Assembly (NCBI RefSeq): GCF_037198315.1
Contig: NZ_CP144913.1
Coordinates: 310,001 to 374,000 of the forward strand
Direction of reading: 5' to 3'
DNA length: 64,000 nucleotides
Source: Janibacter sp. A1S7
GTDB taxonomy: Bacteria > Actinomycetota > Actinomycetes > Actinomycetales > Dermatophilaceae
The translations under genes and the position numbers were made by a program. The notes under the pieces were generated by a model. The model was given only the letters and a program-made list of their open reading frames with translations. It searched no databases and was not told the origin of the DNA. Shown in pieces: positions 47,366 to 63,355 of this stretch; position 1 is the first letter of the stretch; each line of letters starts with the position of its first letter.

Positions 47366-47410
47366 TGCCCCCGGCTGGATTCGAACCAGCGACACCTTCT
47401 TTAGGAGAGC
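47366..47410 (-). other. tRNA-Arg(CCU) 3' fragment, likely attachment site
   Basis: Read on the minus strand this gives anticodon loop CTCCTAA, half an anticodon stem AGAAG, a complete T-arm GCTGGTTCGAATCCAGC, the acceptor strand CGGGGGC and discriminator A. The 5' half of the tRNA is missing: upstream bases do not form the D-arm or the acceptor partner GCCCCCG. This is what remains when an element integrates into a tRNA 3' end. Confidence 0.7.
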
Positions 47411-48094: not shown

Positions 48095-49132
48095 TCACGG
48101 GCAACCCGAGTGGTCGGAGTTAGCCGGTGCGTGATCCCGTTGCGGCGGCAGAACTTGTCGAACAACAGGGTCTCCGTCGAAGTCAACGCGGAGTAGGATC
48201 TGGAGGTCTCCCACTGCCTTCTCGGACCACTCCGCTGACGCTCCTCCATGGAAGCCAAGGGTGGCCTGCAACTTCACGCCCAGGGTCACGTTTCGGCTGG
48301 CTTCCTCAGTCAGGTTAAGGCGCAGGGTCTGACTCTTCTTCTGCACTCCGTCACGAACTGTCCCAAGCAGGTGGCTCATAGCGGGGTCGTGGCTCAGTCG
48401 CTTTTCGATGACCAGAGCTTCCGCCTTGGCAAGATTTGCTTCGGCTGGAACGTTATGTGAGCCAACCTCAAGAAGACGACGAAACTTTCTCGATGCCTGG
48501 CGGTCGAACGAGGCTTCAGCGTCCACAAGTGAGTGTTTTCCGTCCGCTCGGATTGTAAACTCGTCATCGCCTTGATGGACCAGCAGCTCCTCTACCGAGA
48601 ACGATGACGCACCGAGAATTCCCGCGACACGGTCATAGATGAGCAGCTTGTCTAGTGCGAAGACTTCTCGGGCTCTCTCAACAGGCTCGTAGTGCTCAGG
48701 GTCAAACGGGCTTTGAATCAAAATGGCCTCCACCTCGAGCAGGCCGCGCTCATATAGTTGCCGGTCTAAGACCCCTGAGGGTCGGCGGCTAGGAGGAGTG
48801 ACCGATGCGACGTGATTGCACCGCGCGCGGGGGGCATCGTTCCGTGGAAGAACTGCGACAACTCTTCGGCGATGTTCGGGCGTTGCTTGCAGGCTCTTGC
48901 TTCGAGTGGCTTTGGATGCAGCCGCCTCAGGTGAAGCTTCTACTTCCCTCGCGGCACGGGCGACGTCTGCATTGGTGAAGGCATCGCGAACCTTTCTCAC
49001 CACGGGGCCCTCCAGGGTCGAAGAGGCACTCTTCACGAACTCACCTTGGTCGCCCAGGAAGGTGAGCAACTCTTTCGATGAGAGCCCCAGCTCCCTCGCC
49101 AGTTCATGAACTCTCACTTTGGCTTTGGCCAT
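48095..49132 (-). CDS. IF2_N-domain protein of unknown function
   Basis: A 345-residue protein starting at an ATG with a very strong AGGAGGAATC ribosome site. Residues 1-45 ([19 protein letters not shown], then [12 protein letters not shown]) match the small IF2 N-terminal domain normally found on translation initiation factor 2. After a basic linker, about 220 residues form an alpha/beta region I do not recognise, with segments such as [19 protein letters not shown] and [14 protein letters not shown]. The gene lies within IS481 remnants, beside AbiTii, in AT-richer DNA, so a transferred accessory or defence role is plausible but unproven. Confidence 0.7.
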
Positions 49133-49279
49133 GATTCCTCCTGTGCTAGTCATTAACTGTCACTCGTGAGAACCGACTCGCATGCCGTCCACGTTCCATT
49201 CTGATGGCGCAGATGGCGCAGGGGTGCTCCCAGTGACTGTCCATCTCCGCGAATGCTCTGGCCGAGACTTCCTCTGTGG

Positions 49280-49584: not shown

Positions 49585-50526
49585 TTAGCCGCCGAGCGGG
49601 GGGAGGGTCGCGCTGATTAGGCTCTGCAGAGCGTCGTACGCCGCGTTGGTGGTCATGCCCGCCGCGAGCGTATAACCCCCCTGCCGGACTTTCTCAAGCC
49701 AAGAGGAGACCTCGGGTCCCTGCGTGCCACCGTCCTGGTCGATAGCCCGTTGCAGGTCTTGCGTCGCTGCGTCGTCAACGATGTCGTTCACTTCACGGAG
49801 TAGCGTCTTCACGTCTCCTGCAGCGACGGTGGCTTGATTGCCCGTTCCGCTGGCTAGTGCATTGCCACTTCCTAGGACGAGGGAGGCATGATCGCCTGTT
49901 AGATGGATCGTCACGTTCTCGACTGCAGCGGCGACCTCGGGGCTTGTTTTCACTGTAGGTCCGCCCAAGGTGCCGGCGTCGGTGGATGCGCCTTCGAGGG
50001 CCAACACCAGCCGCAACGCTGTTGTTTGCACCTGATCCATCACGGTGGTCAATCGAGAGCGTGGTACGAGCAATTCTGCTGTGTCGAGAAGCATGAGTTC
50101 GACAGTCCCCATCTTGCCTTCCTCGATCGCCTTTCGAGCCTCATGCACCCAGAAGTGAGGGAGCGGCATTCGAGGGTCGTTGTCCGCGCTCTGAAGGGCG
50201 GCGAGTTCGGCGACGGACTGCCTGAGGTCGCCCCACCCCTGTTCCATGGTGGGGCGCAGGCCCTCTGCTAGGTCCCACGGGCCGACGATGATGCTGCGCG
50301 AACTTCCCATGGGTCCTGCGAAGTTTAGGCGAATTGTGGGCGTGGCCCTTCGGTACTCCGGCACAGGGTCGTTGGGCCCATAGCCATCCAGCTCGGACGT
50401 TAGCCATTGAGACAACTCATCTGCCTGGATTCGAGATGCCACAACCATGAGTCGACGAAGTGCACCTGGCAGTTCAGTCGTTGATCCACTCAACTCGTCG
50501 ATCGCCTTGGTCAGCGGATTTGTCAC
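49585..50526 (-). CDS. AbiTii-domain protein
   Basis: A 313-residue protein whose first about 180 residues match the AbiTii domain: PGALRRLMVVASRIQADELS, SELDGYGPNDPVPEYRR and AEGLRPTMEQGWGDLRQSVA are its conserved blocks. AbiTii proteins are linked to abortive phage infection, with no defined mechanism. The C-terminal third includes a Gly/Ala/Asn-rich repeat-like stretch and ends in a helical segment. The GTG at 50526 follows GGAGGGG. It is transcribed away from the conjugation operon and seems to be a single-gene cargo. Confidence 0.78.
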   Translation of the reverse strand: MTNPLTKAIDELSGSTTELPGALRRLMVVASRIQADELSQWLTSELDGYGPNDPVPEYRRATPTIRLNFAGPMGSSRSIIVGPWDLAEGLRPTMEQGWGDLRQSVAELAALQSADNDPRMPLPHFWVHEARKAIEEGKMGTVELMLLDTAELLVPRSRLTTVMDQVQTTALRLVLALEGASTDAGTLGGPTVKTSPEVAAAVENVTIHLTGDHASLVLGSGNALASGTGNQATVAAGDVKTLLREVNDIVDDAATQDLQRAIDQDGGTQGPEVSSWLEKVRQGGYTLAAGMTTNAAYDALQSLISATLPPLGG

Positions 50527-50825
50527 TTTACCCCTCCGGTAATCAGCCAATGGGCGCACGCCACGTGGTCCAAGAGTGCCTCGTTCTAGCCCAACTGTGC
50601 CATCAACACTGATATTGCCCCGCGAGGACCGACAAGGCCGCTCCTTGCCTGTGGATAAAGATCCGCGGCCAGGGCTTGTCTCTGGTGTGCTGGGTTGCAG
50701 GCAGGGGTCCTCGAGACGGGCGGCACCTCCTGCCGCGTGAAAGATGCGTAGTGCGCTGTGCGCTGCGTACTGTTGTTGATGGGGCAGGTGGTCCCGCAAC
50801 TGATCTGGAAGAGGGAGTGCTTCTC
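50527..50825. other. Divergent regulatory region before the conjugation operon
   Basis: About 300 bases between the leftward AbiTii gene and the rightward conjugation operon, so promoters for both must be here. A tandem GTGCGCTGTGCGCTG is seen at about 50748-50762, before the final ribosome site GAGGGAG. I identify no gene in it. Confidence 0.4.
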
Positions 50826-58374: not shown

Positions 58375-59016
58375 GTGACGCTGGCCGTCGAGGAGTTGGT
58401 TGTGAGGTCACGCGAACGAGTGAAGGCCCACGGCGAGGTCTTTACGCCCCGCTACATGGTCGACCAGATGCTCGACCTGGTGAGCGAGGACTTGGAATCC
58501 AGCCCCGACTTCGTTGACAAGACCTTCCTCGAACCGTCGGCCGGGGGCGGCAACTTCCTCGTGGCGATCCTGCGACGCAAACTGCAGGCGATCGAGAAGC
58601 GCTTTCCGGCCAATGAGTGGGCGCAGGAGTCGCTGTTCGCGCTGGCGTCCATCTACGGCATTGAGTTGCTAGAGGACAACCACCAAGAGGCAAAGGCGAT
58701 CATGCTCGCGGAGTTTCTCGGCTTTCACCGCGACCACGGCACCCCGTGCAGCAATCGCACCAACCTGCACCGCGCTGCAGCCTTCCTCATCGACACCAAC
58801 ATCGTCCACGGGAACACTCTGACCAGTCAGGACTGGCGCGGCCAGGAGATCCAGTTCTCGTGGTGGCATAGGTCTCTGGAACAGCCGGGCATCGTTGAAC
58901 GTGAGCCCTTTTCATTCCGATCCCTTCGCGACAACGGGGCGCTCGACTTCGCGGTATATGAGGTCTACGCACCGTGTCCCATCAACCGTGTCCACCAGGA
59001 GGTGACGGCCTCGTGA
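58375..59016 (+). CDS. DNA adenine methyltransferase, SAM-binding half only
   Basis: A 213-residue protein with the N-terminal half of a gamma-type N6-adenine methyltransferase: motif X GEVFTPRYMVDQML (about 20-33), motif I FLEPSAGGGNFL (about 52-63) and an acidic motif II IELLEDN (about 101-107). The catalytic NPPY and target-recognition region are absent. The C-terminus (VYEVYAPCPINRVHQE) continues as in related RM proteins. The NPPY half is encoded 3.3 kb downstream. The GTG at 58375 was chosen for good spacing after GGGGGTG. It overlaps the next start by four bases. Confidence 0.8.
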   Translation: MTLAVEELVVRSRERVKAHGEVFTPRYMVDQMLDLVSEDLESSPDFVDKTFLEPSAGGGNFLVAILRRKLQAIEKRFPANEWAQESLFALASIYGIELLEDNHQEAKAIMLAEFLGFHRDHGTPCSNRTNLHRAAAFLIDTNIVHGNTLTSQDWRGQEIQFSWWHRSLEQPGIVEREPFSFRSLRDNGALDFAVYEVYAPCPINRVHQEVTAS

Positions 59017-62000
59017 CGAGCCCCAAGATCGCTACCTTCCGCCAGATCAATCCGATGGTCTACTCATGGCGAACCCCAGACGTGCCCAAGTACGACGGCT
59101 GGGAGAAGATCGGCTACACAGCTCTCCAGACCGTCGACGACCGGATCGCACAGCAGGCGTCCCAGATGTCGGTGAAGAAGGAGAAGGTTTGGGCGCGGCG
59201 AGCCGTGTTCACGTCCGAGACCGGTGGCCAGTTCACCGACACGGACTTCCATGCCTACCTGAAGCAGCACGGTGTCAAGCGCGAGTTCGCCCCTGATGCA
59301 CAGCCCCAGCAGACGGAGTGGCACCACTTCACCCCTGCGCCGAAGTCGTCCCTCGACTACTTCAACGCCTTCGCCGGCCAGGACTACAGCGACCTTCAAA
59401 CCGGCAGCGAGGACGACTACGTCCTGAGGCCCGAGCAGCAGGATGCTGTCGCCCAGGCCATGGCGGCCTTCGTCCGTGGCTCCGAAGAGGTGCTGTGGAA
59501 CGCCAAGCCTCGGTTCGGAAAGACGCTGACGACATACCACCTCATGCGCGAGCTGGACGCGGTCCGCGTTTTGATTGTTACCAACCGACCGGCCATCGCC
59601 AACTCGTGGTTCGACGACTTCACTCGCTTTATCGGCCACCAGACGACATTTAAGTTCGTCTCGGAGTCGCCATCGCTGGCACACCGCTCACCGATGACCC
59701 GGGCCCAGTGGATCGCCTACTCCAACGAACACATGGACAAGGACCCCCGCGTCGTCGAGTTCCTCTCGCTTCAAGACTTGAAGGGGTCGCAGTACTTCGG
59801 TGGGACGCACAATAAACTGAAACACATCGCCGACTTCCAGTGGGACCTTCTCGTCATCGACGAGGCCCACGAAGGCGTCGACACCACCAAGACGGATATC
59901 GCTTTCGACCAGATCAAGCGCAAGCACACGCTCCACCTGTCAGGCACACCGTTCAAGGCGCTGTCTGCAGGCCGCTTCACCGACGACGAGATCTTCAACT
60001 GGACGTACGAGGACGAGCAGCAGGCTCGCACGGATTGGGACGACAGGACCCAGGAGAATCCCTACGCTGCGCTGCCCACCCTCAACCTGCTCACTTACCA
60101 GCTCTCTCGCATGATCACCGACCGCCTAGCCGAGGGCGTAGCGATCGACGAGGACGAGGCGAGCGTGGACTTTACGTTCGATCTCAACCAGTTCTTCGCC
60201 ACCAAGGACAACGGATTCTTCGTGTACGAAGCTGAGGTCACCAAGTTTCTCGACACCCTCACGACCAACGACAAGTACCCGTATTCCACCCCCGAGCTAC
60301 GCGACGAGATCCGCCACTCCTTCTGGTTGCTCAACCGTGTGGCCTCCGCGAAGGCGCTGGAGAAGCTCCTCAAGGTGCACCCAGTGTTCAAGGACTACAC
60401 CGTTGTCCTCGCAGCCGGTGATGGGCGAACCGAAGAGGACGACCCGGTCGCCATTGGCAAGTCCCTAGGCAAAGTGCGCGAGGCGATCGGTGACGCAGAA
60501 GCCTCAGGTGGCAAGACCATCACCCTGTCGGTTGGACAGTTGACTACGGGTGTCACGGTCCCCGAGTGGACCGCAGTCATCATGCTGTCCAACATGTCAT
60601 CCCCGGCTCAATACATGCAGGCGGCCTTCCGGGCTCAGAATCCGCATACCTTCGAGCGAGACGGCGACGTCTACCAGAAGACCAACTCATATATCTTCGA
60701 CTTCGCCCCAGAACGCACGCTGACCATCGTCGATACATTCGCGAATAACCTGAGCCCAAACCCACCGTTGAGCGCAGAGATCCGACGGGACAACATCCGA
60801 CGGCTCCTCAATTTCTTCCCGGTGCTGGGCGAGGACTCCGAGGGGCGCATGATCGAGCTCGATGCCTCGCAGGTCCTCACCTTCCCGCAGGTTTTCAAAG
60901 CCCGCGAGGTCGTCCGACGCGGTTTTCTGTCAAACCTGCTGTTTGACAACGTGGCCGGCATCTTCCGTTACTCCGAACACGTCAAAGAGATCTTGGACAA
61001 GTTGCCGACGGCCAAGGGGGGCAAGGTCAAGAAGGGCGAGACCCTAGAGATCCCGCAGCCGCCGCCCACGACGGACCCTAACGGCAACGTGCAGGTCGAC
61101 GAGACCGTCATCAACCCCAAGGTCGCCGAGCTCGGTCCCCCGGTGTGGGCGGTCGAGGAGATCCCCGTCATCGACCCCGCCACTCCTGTGGCCAAGGCCG
61201 TGGCCGAGGTCGCCAAGTTCGTGACGGGCCAGACCGGCACTAAGCGCGAGGAGTTGAAGGACGCTTATCAGCTGACCAAGAAGCAGGTCGAGCGAGACGT
61301 CAAGCGGACCGAGCAGCTCGTGGCCGACAAGGTTGAGCGTGCACTGACCGATCACCAGATCGCCCAGAAGCACCTCCAGGATGAGTTCGAGGCCGCGGCT
61401 ACCGAGACCGAAGCCGACGAGGTCAAGTCTCGGCAAGCGGGCGAGACGGAAGCGTTCAAGACGGATCTGGCGGCGATCGTGGAGGACGTGATGGAGGCCA
61501 TCGTCCCCGAGGTGGTCAAGAGGGAGGAGACAAAGTCGGAGCAGAAGCGCGCCGACCAGACGATGGAGGACGCCCGGTCCCACCTTCGGGGCTTCGCCCG
61601 CACGATCCCGATGTTCCTCATGGCCTACGGTGACCGCGGCCTGGTTCTGTCGAACTTCGACGACTACACCCCGGACGACGTGTTCGAGGAGATCACCGGT
61701 ATCACCGAGGACGAGTTCCGACTGCTGCGCGACGGGCAGGACGTCACTGAGGAGGACGGCACCGTTGTGAAGATTCCCGGCCTGTTCGACGAGGCGGTCT
61801 TCAACCAGTCCGTCCAAGAGTTCCTCGATAAGAAGGAAGCCCTGGCCGACTACTTCAACGACTCCCAGACTGAGAGCATCTTCGCCTACATCCCGCAGCA
61901 GAAGACCTCTCTCGTCTTTACCCCGCAACCGGTAGTGAAGAAGATGGTCGACCTCCTTGAGGTCGAAAACCCGGGCATCTTCACGGACCCGGACAAGACG

Positions 62001-62306
62001 TTCGCCGACCTGTTCTCTACCGCCGGGCTGTTCCTAATGGAGCTCGTGCGCCGCCTCGATACCGGTCTGACTGAGGTCATCCCCGACCAAGAGGACAGGC
62101 TGCGGCATATCCTCACGTCGCAGATATTCGAGATGAGTCACAGCGAGATCCTGCACCGCATTACCATCGAAGCTGTGTCTGGTGGCCTGCCTGAGCGTCG
62201 CGAGTGGATGGAGAGCTCGGGGCACTTTGTGTATGGCGATATCGCTCGCATGAGCACCGAGCAACGACGCCAGATCGTTGACGGAATGTTGACGGAAGGA
62301 AGCTGA
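59013..62306 (+). CDS. GIY-YIG nuclease-SF2 helicase protein with degenerate methyltransferase region
   Basis: A 1097-residue protein. Residues 15-106 resemble a GIY-YIG (T5orf172-type) nuclease: VYSW (Tyr17), KIGYT (32-36), Arg44 and TEWHHF (Glu102). A SF2 helicase follows: motif I AKPRFGKT (about 163), motif II DEAH (about 283), motif III LSGTPF, motif V TTGVTVPEW and motif VI QAAFRAQNP. Residues 723-850 form a long charged coiled coil. The end holds a second, degenerate methyltransferase N-half: motif X VFTPQPVVKKM (969) and motif I FADLFSTAG (997). It should be the restriction and translocation subunit. GTG start overlaps the previous gene by four bases. Confidence 0.82.
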   Translation: MTSPKIATFRQINPMVYSWRTPDVPKYDGWEKIGYTALQTVDDRIAQQASQMSVKKEKVWARRAVFTSETGGQFTDTDFHAYLKQHGVKREFAPDAQPQQTEWHHFTPAPKSSLDYFNAFAGQDYSDLQTGSEDDYVLRPEQQDAVAQAMAAFVRGSEEVLWNAKPRFGKTLTTYHLMRELDAVRVLIVTNRPAIANSWFDDFTRFIGHQTTFKFVSESPSLAHRSPMTRAQWIAYSNEHMDKDPRVVEFLSLQDLKGSQYFGGTHNKLKHIADFQWDLLVIDEAHEGVDTTKTDIAFDQIKRKHTLHLSGTPFKALSAGRFTDDEIFNWTYEDEQQARTDWDDRTQENPYAALPTLNLLTYQLSRMITDRLAEGVAIDEDEASVDFTFDLNQFFATKDNGFFVYEAEVTKFLDTLTTNDKYPYSTPELRDEIRHSFWLLNRVASAKALEKLLKVHPVFKDYTVVLAAGDGRTEEDDPVAIGKSLGKVREAIGDAEASGGKTITLSVGQLTTGVTVPEWTAVIMLSNMSSPAQYMQAAFRAQNPHTFERDGDVYQKTNSYIFDFAPERTLTIVDTFANNLSPNPPLSAEIRRDNIRRLLNFFPVLGEDSEGRMIELDASQVLTFPQVFKAREVVRRGFLSNLLFDNVAGIFRYSEHVKEILDKLPTAKGGKVKKGETLEIPQPPPTTDPNGNVQVDETVINPKVAELGPPVWAVEEIPVIDPATPVAKAVAEVAKFVTGQTGTKREELKDAYQLTKKQVERDVKRTEQLVADKVERALTDHQIAQKHLQDEFEAAATETEADEVKSRQAGETEAFKTDLAAIVEDVMEAIVPEVVKREETKSEQKRADQTMEDARSHLRGFARTIPMFLMAYGDRGLVLSNFDDYTPDDVFEEITGITEDEFRLLRDGQDVTEEDGTVVKIPGLFDEAVFNQSVQEFLDKKEALADYFNDSQTESIFAYIPQQKTSLVFTPQPVVKKMVDLLEVENPGIFTDPDKTFADLFSTAGLFLMELVRRLDTGLTEVIPDQEDRLRHILTSQIFEMSHSEILHRITIEAVSGGLPERREWMESSGHFVYGDIARMSTEQRRQIVDGMLTEGS

Positions 62307-63355
62307 TGATGGGAAAGAAGTTTGACGTCGTGATCGGCAACCCGCCGTATCAGAGTGAGGCCGTTCGTGAGGGTGGTCGAAGCGAGCCGCTCTACCACCT
62401 CTTCTTGGATGCCGCATACGAGGTCGGTCAACAGGCGGTCATCATCACGCCCGCACGATTCCTATCCAATGCAGGCCAGACGCCGAAGGCGTGGAACTCC
62501 AAGATGCTCGCGGACAAACATCTTCGAGTCGCATACTTCGAACCGGACTCGGGCAAACTCTTTCCTGAAATTACCGACACGATCAAGGGCGGCATCGTCG
62601 TCACCCACCGCGACTCGGAACGGATCCTCGGGCCGATCGGTACATTCGCCCGTCACACTGCCCTTGGCGGAGTACTACATAAAGTCGACCGTGCGAGCGT
62701 CGCGTCGCTCATGACGGTTGTCTCTGCAAAGGGCGCGTTTCGATATACAAACAAGATGTTCGAAGACTACCCAGATGCATCGGAGATGATCCCAAACGGG
62801 AGCAGCAACATGGTTGTTGGCTTCAACACCCTTCCATCTATATGGCATACCGATAGGCCGAACGACGGCCATGTCTACGCGGTCGTGCATGGCCTTGATT
62901 CGACGAGGCGTACGTCGCGATACATTCGACGGGACTACATCACTGGACCGGATTCGTTCGACAAGTGGAAGGTAGCAATCGCGAAGGTAAACGGCACGGG
63001 TTCGACCACTGACTTCTTCGGGCTGCCCCTGACGAACCCGTTCGTGCTCAACCCAGGTGTGGGTGTGACGCTTACGTTCATGACGATCGGCGCGTTCGAT
63101 TCGGAGATGGAGGCGAACGCGTGCCTCAAGTATCTAAAGACGAAGTTCGCGCGTGCGATGCTGGGCGTGTTGAAGGTGACTCAGGACAACGCGCGCGGGA
63201 CTTGGAAGCACGTCCCCCTCCAAGACTTCACCAGTAGCTCCGACATTGCTTGGGCGAAGTCGATCCCCGAGATCGACCAGCAGCTCTACGCCAAGTATGG
63301 ACTCGATGCGGACGAGATTTCCTTCATTGAAGAAGAGGTAAAGCCGATGGCATGA
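62306..63355 (+). CDS. Eco57I-type methyltransferase catalytic half with target-recognition region
   Basis: A 349-residue protein that begins abruptly at the catalytic core: FDVVIGNPPYQ (NPPY at residues 12-15) and QAVIITPARFLSNAG, with no SAM-binding motif I. The rest, with TPKAWNSKMLADKHLRV and FPEITDTIKGGIVV, matches Eco57I-class RM methyltransferases, and the variable second half is the likely target-recognition region. It must borrow the SAM-binding half from the first gene or from the helicase protein's C-terminus. The ATG overlaps the previous stop and follows GGAAGGAAG. Codon use is more AT-rich than in the neighbours. Confidence 0.82.
   Translation: MMGKKFDVVIGNPPYQSEAVREGGRSEPLYHLFLDAAYEVGQQAVIITPARFLSNAGQTPKAWNSKMLADKHLRVAYFEPDSGKLFPEITDTIKGGIVVTHRDSERILGPIGTFARHTALGGVLHKVDRASVASLMTVVSAKGAFRYTNKMFEDYPDASEMIPNGSSNMVVGFNTLPSIWHTDRPNDGHVYAVVHGLDSTRRTSRYIRRDYITGPDSFDKWKVAIAKVNGTGSTTDFFGLPLTNPFVLNPGVGVTLTFMTIGAFDSEMEANACLKYLKTKFARAMLGVLKVTQDNARGTWKHVPLQDFTSSSDIAWAKSIPEIDQQLYAKYGLDADEISFIEEEVKPMA

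Follow-up and report, generated by a model that had tools for sequence, protein, structure and literature searches.

The stretch analysed here, 64,000 nucleotides of Janibacter sp. A1S7 (contig NZ_CP144913.1, positions 310,001 to 374,000, forward strand; hereafter the window, in whose positions all coordinates are given), contains a three-gene operon on the plus strand (58375..63355) that we interpret, with a probability of about 0.68, as an ATP-dependent restriction-modification (RM) machine resembling the Type ISP enzymes, in which genes 1 and 3 would supply the methyltransferase in trans and gene 2 the restriction arm. Gene 1 (58375..59016, 213 amino acids, aa) encodes an S-adenosylmethionine (SAM)-binding methyltransferase half with motifs X, I, II and III. 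Gene 2 (59013..62306, 1097 aa) combines a GIY-YIG nuclease, a superfamily 2 (SF2) motor, a coiled coil and a degenerate methyltransferase N-half, and gene 3 (62306..63355, 349 aa) encodes the catalytic NPPY half with a target recognition region. Under the proposed scheme, the products of genes 1 and 3 would assemble into one adenine methyltransferase, the former binding SAM and the latter contributing recognition and NPPY, whereas the gene 2 protein would be attached to it by the degenerate N-half, acting as a docking piece between motor and methyltransferase. Recognition of unmethylated sites would go through gene 3, after which the motor would move the DNA and its GIY-YIG domain would cleave it.

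The evidence that genes 1 and 3 jointly encode a methyltransferase comes from their motifs and from fusions of their relatives. Gene 1 matches the Pfam family MmeI_Mtase with an expectation value (E) of 2e-5, below the family cut-off, and contains a conserved motif X (EVFTP, 58435..58449) and motif I (FLEPSAGGGNFL, 58525..58560). The Glu and both Gly residues of motif I, together with the Glu of motif II, are identical in all 120 listed sequences, the window included; in the 120 listed proteins where a related SAM half is fused to an NPPY half, there is likewise no variation in the motif I Glu, the first Gly or the motif II Glu, and the third position is Ala in 114. These counts were made on aligned columns, given that regular expressions missed motif I in 8 of 67 open reading frames (ORFs) and motif II in 7. 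Gene 3 matches the Pfam family Eco57I (E 1.1e-14) and is homologous to the C-halves of methyltransferase fusions; its NPPY (motif IV, 62339..62350) is invariant in the 67 rows of alignment A3. Across 11 close sequences, residues 126-250 of gene 3 (62681..63055) show a mean pairwise identity of 0.39-0.56 per 25-residue block, compared with 0.73-0.81 for residues 1-75 and 276-349, so that this variable, presumed target-recognition region suggests that gene 3 likely carries the DNA specificity.

In a relative from Peptococcaceae (locus L120), a single protein of 586 residues joins a homologue of gene 1 (41% identity), in its N-terminal part, to one of gene 3 (45%), which indicates that the two genes belong together. 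Read across gene 1 and then gene 3, as in this fusion, the motifs follow the gamma-class order of X, I-III, NPPY and recognition domain, and a structure model of a related methyltransferase fusion, from which the one-unit fold is taken, predicts one complete adenine methyltransferase.

Gene 2 starts with a GIY-YIG domain of the T5orf172 type (residues 9-105, 59037..59327), with predicted strands and helices. T5orf172 is matched at E 0.1 or better by the 8 other members of a 9-member gene 2 alignment (best 7.6e-9), and the N-terminal domain yields no Mrr family at E 0.1 in this alignment. Residues Y17, G34, R44 and E102, which correspond to the GIY/YIG-region Tyr and Gly, the Arg and the catalytic Glu of the GIY-YIG superfamily, are identical in all 63 aligned gene 2 sequences, the window included, and H80 in 62 of them. 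The SF2 helicase-like motor follows in the same chain, as in Type ISP enzymes (residues 133-585, 59409..60767; Pfam ResIII, E 3.4e-15), its catalytic-type residues being invariant in 63/63 sequences, and is itself followed by a long coiled coil (residues 756-862, 61278..61598) that the model renders as long helices at 756-794 and 798-862. The structural search with the gene 2 model was filled by helicases, and our statements on the GIY-YIG domain and the degenerate N-half rest on other evidence. The best whole-length Foldseek match of this model is a Type ISP enzyme, LlaBIII, and hence we describe the layout as a rearranged ISP-like one.

The C-terminus of gene 2 (residues 950-1097, 61860..62303) is a second methyltransferase N-half, recognisable by TSLVFTP and ADLFSTAGLFL and, in the predicted structure, by three strands at the positions of motifs I, II and III. 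It retains the FTP of motif X and the second glycine of motif I. All 120 listed gene 2 sequences have Thr in place of the first motif I Gly and Ser in place of the motif II acidic residue. In a clade where this half is detached from the motor and joined to the NPPY half, Lys takes the place of the first Gly in 14/14 sequences and the motif II acid is gone; among the loci retrieved by name (79 matches, 78 of them segments with a letter at that position), Lys occurs 72 times and Thr 6 times, with Ala (72) or Ser (6) at the motif II acidic position. Lacking the first Gly and the motif II acid, this half is unlikely to bind SAM, and because it is kept in nearly all complete loci all the same, we suspect a structural or switching role.

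The first-pass annotation of this stretch, made from the letters and ORF translations, had described three overlapping genes encoding a SAM half, a GIY-YIG/SF2 protein and an NPPY half, and this description is confirmed by the ORFs, their overlaps and their domains, the domain reading by Pfam, conserved residues and homologues. Its claim that two proteins are needed for one methyltransferase finds support in the L120 fusion. The second N-half that it placed on gene 2 is real, but this half is degenerate and unlikely to bind SAM.

The gene boundaries are consistent with this picture. Genes 1 and 2 overlap by 4 nucleotides (GTGA) and genes 2 and 3 by 1 nucleotide (TGATG). The start of gene 2 is most likely the GTG at 59013 rather than 58974, because a Shine-Dalgarno-like AGGAGG is found at 58997..59002 and because of the lengths of the listed homologues (1091-1104 aa in 119 of 120, 1081 aa in the remaining one); the resulting 1097-aa protein agrees with the earlier numbering of Glu102. 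Several searches used the longer version from 58974, with 13 extra N-terminal residues. NCBIfam gave no match at cut-off, and searches of solved-structure sequences with single sequences gave no relevant match.

Relatives of the operon are numerous. A homologue search yielded at least 7,997 gene 2 homologues; gene 1 was matched by 3,189 of 3,361 scored candidates, and a related fused methyltransferase by 7,862 of 7,998. Gene 2 matches, some of them weak or partial, were obtained in 15 of 186 genomes of the same family and 19 of 396 genomes of the phylum (own genome included in both), in 83 of 72,556 plasmid records (31 covering at least 80% of the protein) and in 20 of 50,697 phage records (one covering at least 80%).

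For the analysis of gene arrangements, we denote the intact SAM half T1, the N-half found on gene 2 T2, the NPPY half N and the nuclease-motor R, with slashes between genes. Profiles classified 107 loci, namely 27 of 30 stretches from genome searches and 80 named loci (the best 80 of at least 588); L022 and L023 (a T2 fragment and NPPY half without a motor) and L025 (a motor fragment) were left out, and weak or cut matches such as L014, L015 and L041-L043 were not among the extended loci. The counts refer to the 85 loci left after 22 of the 107, which lay near the end of a contig or locus, had been set aside; they include two pairs from one genome each (L024/L075 and L055/L093). The loci were picked by motor similarity, and the counts are silent on modules living without a motor.

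All four modules are present in 83 of the 85 loci, the exceptions being L081, which lacks T2 and the NPPY half, and L101, which lacks the SAM half and starts at a contig end. The modules are joined in several ways: T1N/RT2 in 27 loci, T1/N/RT2 in 15, T1/T2N/R in 14, T1/RT2/N, the arrangement of the window, in 14 (13 genomes), and T1/RT2N in 4, with 11 odd or broken cases including L082, L081 and L101. We had considered T1/R/T2N (L082) as a sixth arrangement and gave it up: its two ORFs share one frame with a single in-frame stop, and it may be an interrupted T1/RT2N. On a motor-domain tree built by a quick method (90 rows, the window included, with one of each same-genome pair left out), the arrangements require at least 15 changes with L082 as its own state; T1N/RT2 alone requires 12, 6 of which are forced by well-supported branches. 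A long-branch warning on this tree concerns the T1/T2N/R clade. Two further variations were observed among the relatives. In the operon at L124:861-6079, the motor gene is followed by a second T1-NPPY gene, which is incomplete, and one genome contains two additional 3.8 kb copies (L022:5940-9748 and L023:5443-9251, compared with L024:7623-11431), 99.9% identical, that encompass the end of gene 2 and gene 3 without the motor.

The same comparison bears on the possibility that the operon is one long gene split by a frameshift, either an assembly artefact or a programmed event. Such long genes exist: chains of 1415-1457 aa joining motor, T2 and NPPY half are found in L088, L100, L114, L121, L141 and L154, with the SAM half as a separate gene in all of these except L121, whose upstream sequence is cut off. 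We nevertheless consider a frameshift very improbable, given that the three-gene split recurs in the 14 loci from 13 genomes and that the window sits in a well-supported clade of 13 rows sharing its arrangement. Moreover, the frame of gene 3 relative to gene 2 in the 14 split loci, the window included, is -1 in 8, +1 in 5 and the same in 1, and these mixed relations argue against a conserved programmed frameshift.

Several observations weigh against the reading of the operon as an ISP-like RM machine with its methyltransferase in trans. Pfam called no GIY-YIG family on the gene 2 protein of the window. The Foldseek alignment of gene 2 with LlaBIII has a root-mean-square deviation of 27.6 and a TM (template modelling) score of 0.23, and therefore supports the domain order, not one superposable structure. 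A profile comparison of the gene 1 tail with the segment immediately preceding NPPY in the fusions of 650 aa revealed no shared tail; L120 alone aligns to gene 1 through that segment. A comparable gene set of Bacillus subtilis, DnmA-YeeB-YeeC (methyltransferase, SF2 helicase and T5orf172/GIY-YIG protein), did not protect this host from any of three phages, according to the part of PMC9973331 that deals with it. Finally, 18 of the 85 loci (T1/T2N/R, 14; T1/RT2N, 4) have T2 and the NPPY half on one protein, and T2 may therefore, at least on occasion, be the partner of gene 3. As to the gene 1 tail, we had also expected the 650-aa fusions to carry its C-terminal element (IQFSWW...REPFSFRSL) immediately ahead of NPPY; a regular expression for it hit 4 of 44 fusion tails, compared with 29/120 and 5/15 gene 1 tails, and this argument was dropped.

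These T2-NPPY fusions, also present in L082 with an in-frame stop before the fusion, raise the question of which N-half works with gene 3. The operon could be a cut Type ISP chain, with the working methyltransferase formed by the C-terminal half of gene 2 and gene 3, and with gene 1 as an accessory or regulatory SAM sensor. In the window, T2 lies directly upstream of NPPY, and its retained FTP and second motif I glycine fit an N-half in use. What makes this alternative unlikely is that the first motif I Gly and the motif II acid are missing from every aligned T2, be it among the 120 listed close sequences, the 78 segments of named loci or the 14 of the T1/T2N/R clade, and that it is a gene 1 homologue that is fused to the NPPY half in L120, as are related SAM halves in the T1N loci. 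A tentative and rather doubtful extension would accommodate both partnerships of gene 3 by making it a switch, which would methylate when joined to the SAM-competent half of gene 1 and license translocation and cutting when joined to the SAM-blind T2. If so, the system would decide between marking DNA and cutting it by physically exchanging one half of a methyltransferase fold for another.

The phage data on DnmA-YeeB-YeeC point in another direction, namely that the operon, as concluded for that set in B. subtilis, is a methylating or regulatory relic without restriction. We regard this as somewhat less likely again than a cut Type ISP chain. The invariance of the GIY-YIG and helicase catalytic-type residues described above, including the near-invariance of H80, would be unexpected in a dead restriction arm; the operon is located within what is likely an integrative element, between its repeats, and gene 2 relatives occur on plasmids, as counted above. 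In addition, phage protection by the Vibrio crassostreae homologues is cited in the same part of PMC9973331. The ISP-like RM machine with genes 1 and 3 acting in trans remains our preferred reading.

The putative element would be delimited by an exact 21-base direct repeat at 47389-47409 and, beyond the window, at 72406-72426, the right copy being located inside a tRNA-Arg(CCT) gene (72381-72454, minus strand). These repeats are likely the attachment sites of an integrative element of roughly 25 kb that carries the operon. About 1.5 kb inside the right repeat, a 371-aa ORF (L155:6749-7861, window about 69748-70860) has a start that by eye resembles a tyrosine integrase, and between this ORF and the tRNA gene lies a 401-aa ORF (L155:8074-9276, window about 71073-72275) with an IS481-type transposase-like start, also by eye. 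Near the left end, a 352-aa protein contains an IF2_N domain (48095-49153, E 3e-12). Upstream of the operon, the element further encodes an AAA_10 ATPase, an M23 peptidase and a protein with an AbiTii domain (49585-50799, E 1.6e-22), possibly a second defence gene. The neighbour of the operon at L155:459-1277 (minus strand, window about 63458-64276) has, by eye, a PP2C-type phosphatase-like start; the part of this gene inside the window gave no Pfam match.

A motor-driven restriction enzyme has to coordinate the recognition of sites with methylation and cleavage. In this family, the parts occur naturally separated and in several combinations, so that the roles of the subunits can be tested gene by gene, and the constantly SAM-blind T2 offers a clean case for the role of a pseudo-methyltransferase domain in DNA restriction. 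The relatives, with the at least 7,997 gene 2 homologues among them, bear names such as 'Eco57I restriction-modification methylase domain-containing protein', 'DEAD/DEAH box helicase', 'GIY-YIG nuclease family protein' and 'hypothetical protein', and methyltransferases would be miscounted if annotation took every NPPY protein for a complete methyltransferase or every SAM half for an enzyme of its own.

The operon differs from the standard RM layouts, as the first-pass annotation had maintained. A Type I system would have a separate HsdS; here the variable region sits in gene 3, and no specificity-subunit Pfam match was detected in a scan of the 7 proteins in and beside the operon. Type III systems have a beta-class Mod, with the catalytic motif before the SAM motif, and a separate Res; in the operon, NPPY comes after the SAM motifs, and only the ResIII helicase domain is common to both.

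Some pieces of the operon are already represented by PADLOC models: PDLC03626 (Type IIG, 1359 aa) matches the motor together with the C-half, PDLC03375 (348 aa) the NPPY half and PDLC03390 (327 aa) the fused type of SAM half. These entries, which we take to be derived from REBASE, are named only Type IIG or Type II, names that do not link the pieces into one system. No description of this gene set was found in literature searches covering titles, abstract openings and passages, with REBASE outside them. The earlier expectation that the class may be widespread is borne out by the homologue counts and the recurrence of the three-gene split in other genomes.

Naturally split methyltransferases have precedents. 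M.AquI and M.EcoHK31I consist of two polypeptides each, like the presumed methyltransferase of the operon, but are cytosine-C5 enzymes whose split lies in the variable region or at motif IX, and neither a spare N-half nor a motor or nuclease chain comes up in the passage of PMC3404938 that describes them. A new class of split DNA methyltransferases with 2 or 3 subunits, which also has unsplit members, is noted in a passage of PMC4335053 (R. J. Roberts, personal communication); it may be the same as, or related to, the class of the operon, although that passage gives a Campylobacter Type II RM protein as its example and does not go into gene content, motor, nuclease or mechanism. DnmA-YeeB-YeeC of B. 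subtilis and V. crassostreae likewise unites an adenine methyltransferase, an SF2 helicase and a T5orf172/GIY-YIG protein in one cluster, but, by the description in the relevant part of PMC9973331, on which our comparison is based, its MmeI-like methyltransferase is whole and its motor and nuclease are separate, whereas in the operon the methyltransferase is split and the nuclease is fused to the motor.

The closest comparison is with the Type ISP enzymes, which, as the corresponding part of PMC3874165 describes them, are single chains of an Mrr-like nuclease, a translocase, a gamma methyltransferase and a recognition domain. LlaGI and LlaBIII share with the operon the order of nuclease, SF2 motor, gamma methyltransferase and target recognition, and the methyltransferase fusion relative of the operon shows a strong structural match to Type ISP. 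Unlike in these enzymes, the nuclease of the operon is a GIY-YIG type domain instead of Mrr, the chain is divided among three ORFs, and the motor chain carries a degenerate N-half, the intact half coming from another protein. Because of these differences, the operon is not a Type ISP enzyme. The departure from the Type I, III and ISP layouts thus stands, but it is that of a rearranged ISP-like system with one-chain motor-methyltransferase relatives, one that probably works like a Type ISP enzyme.

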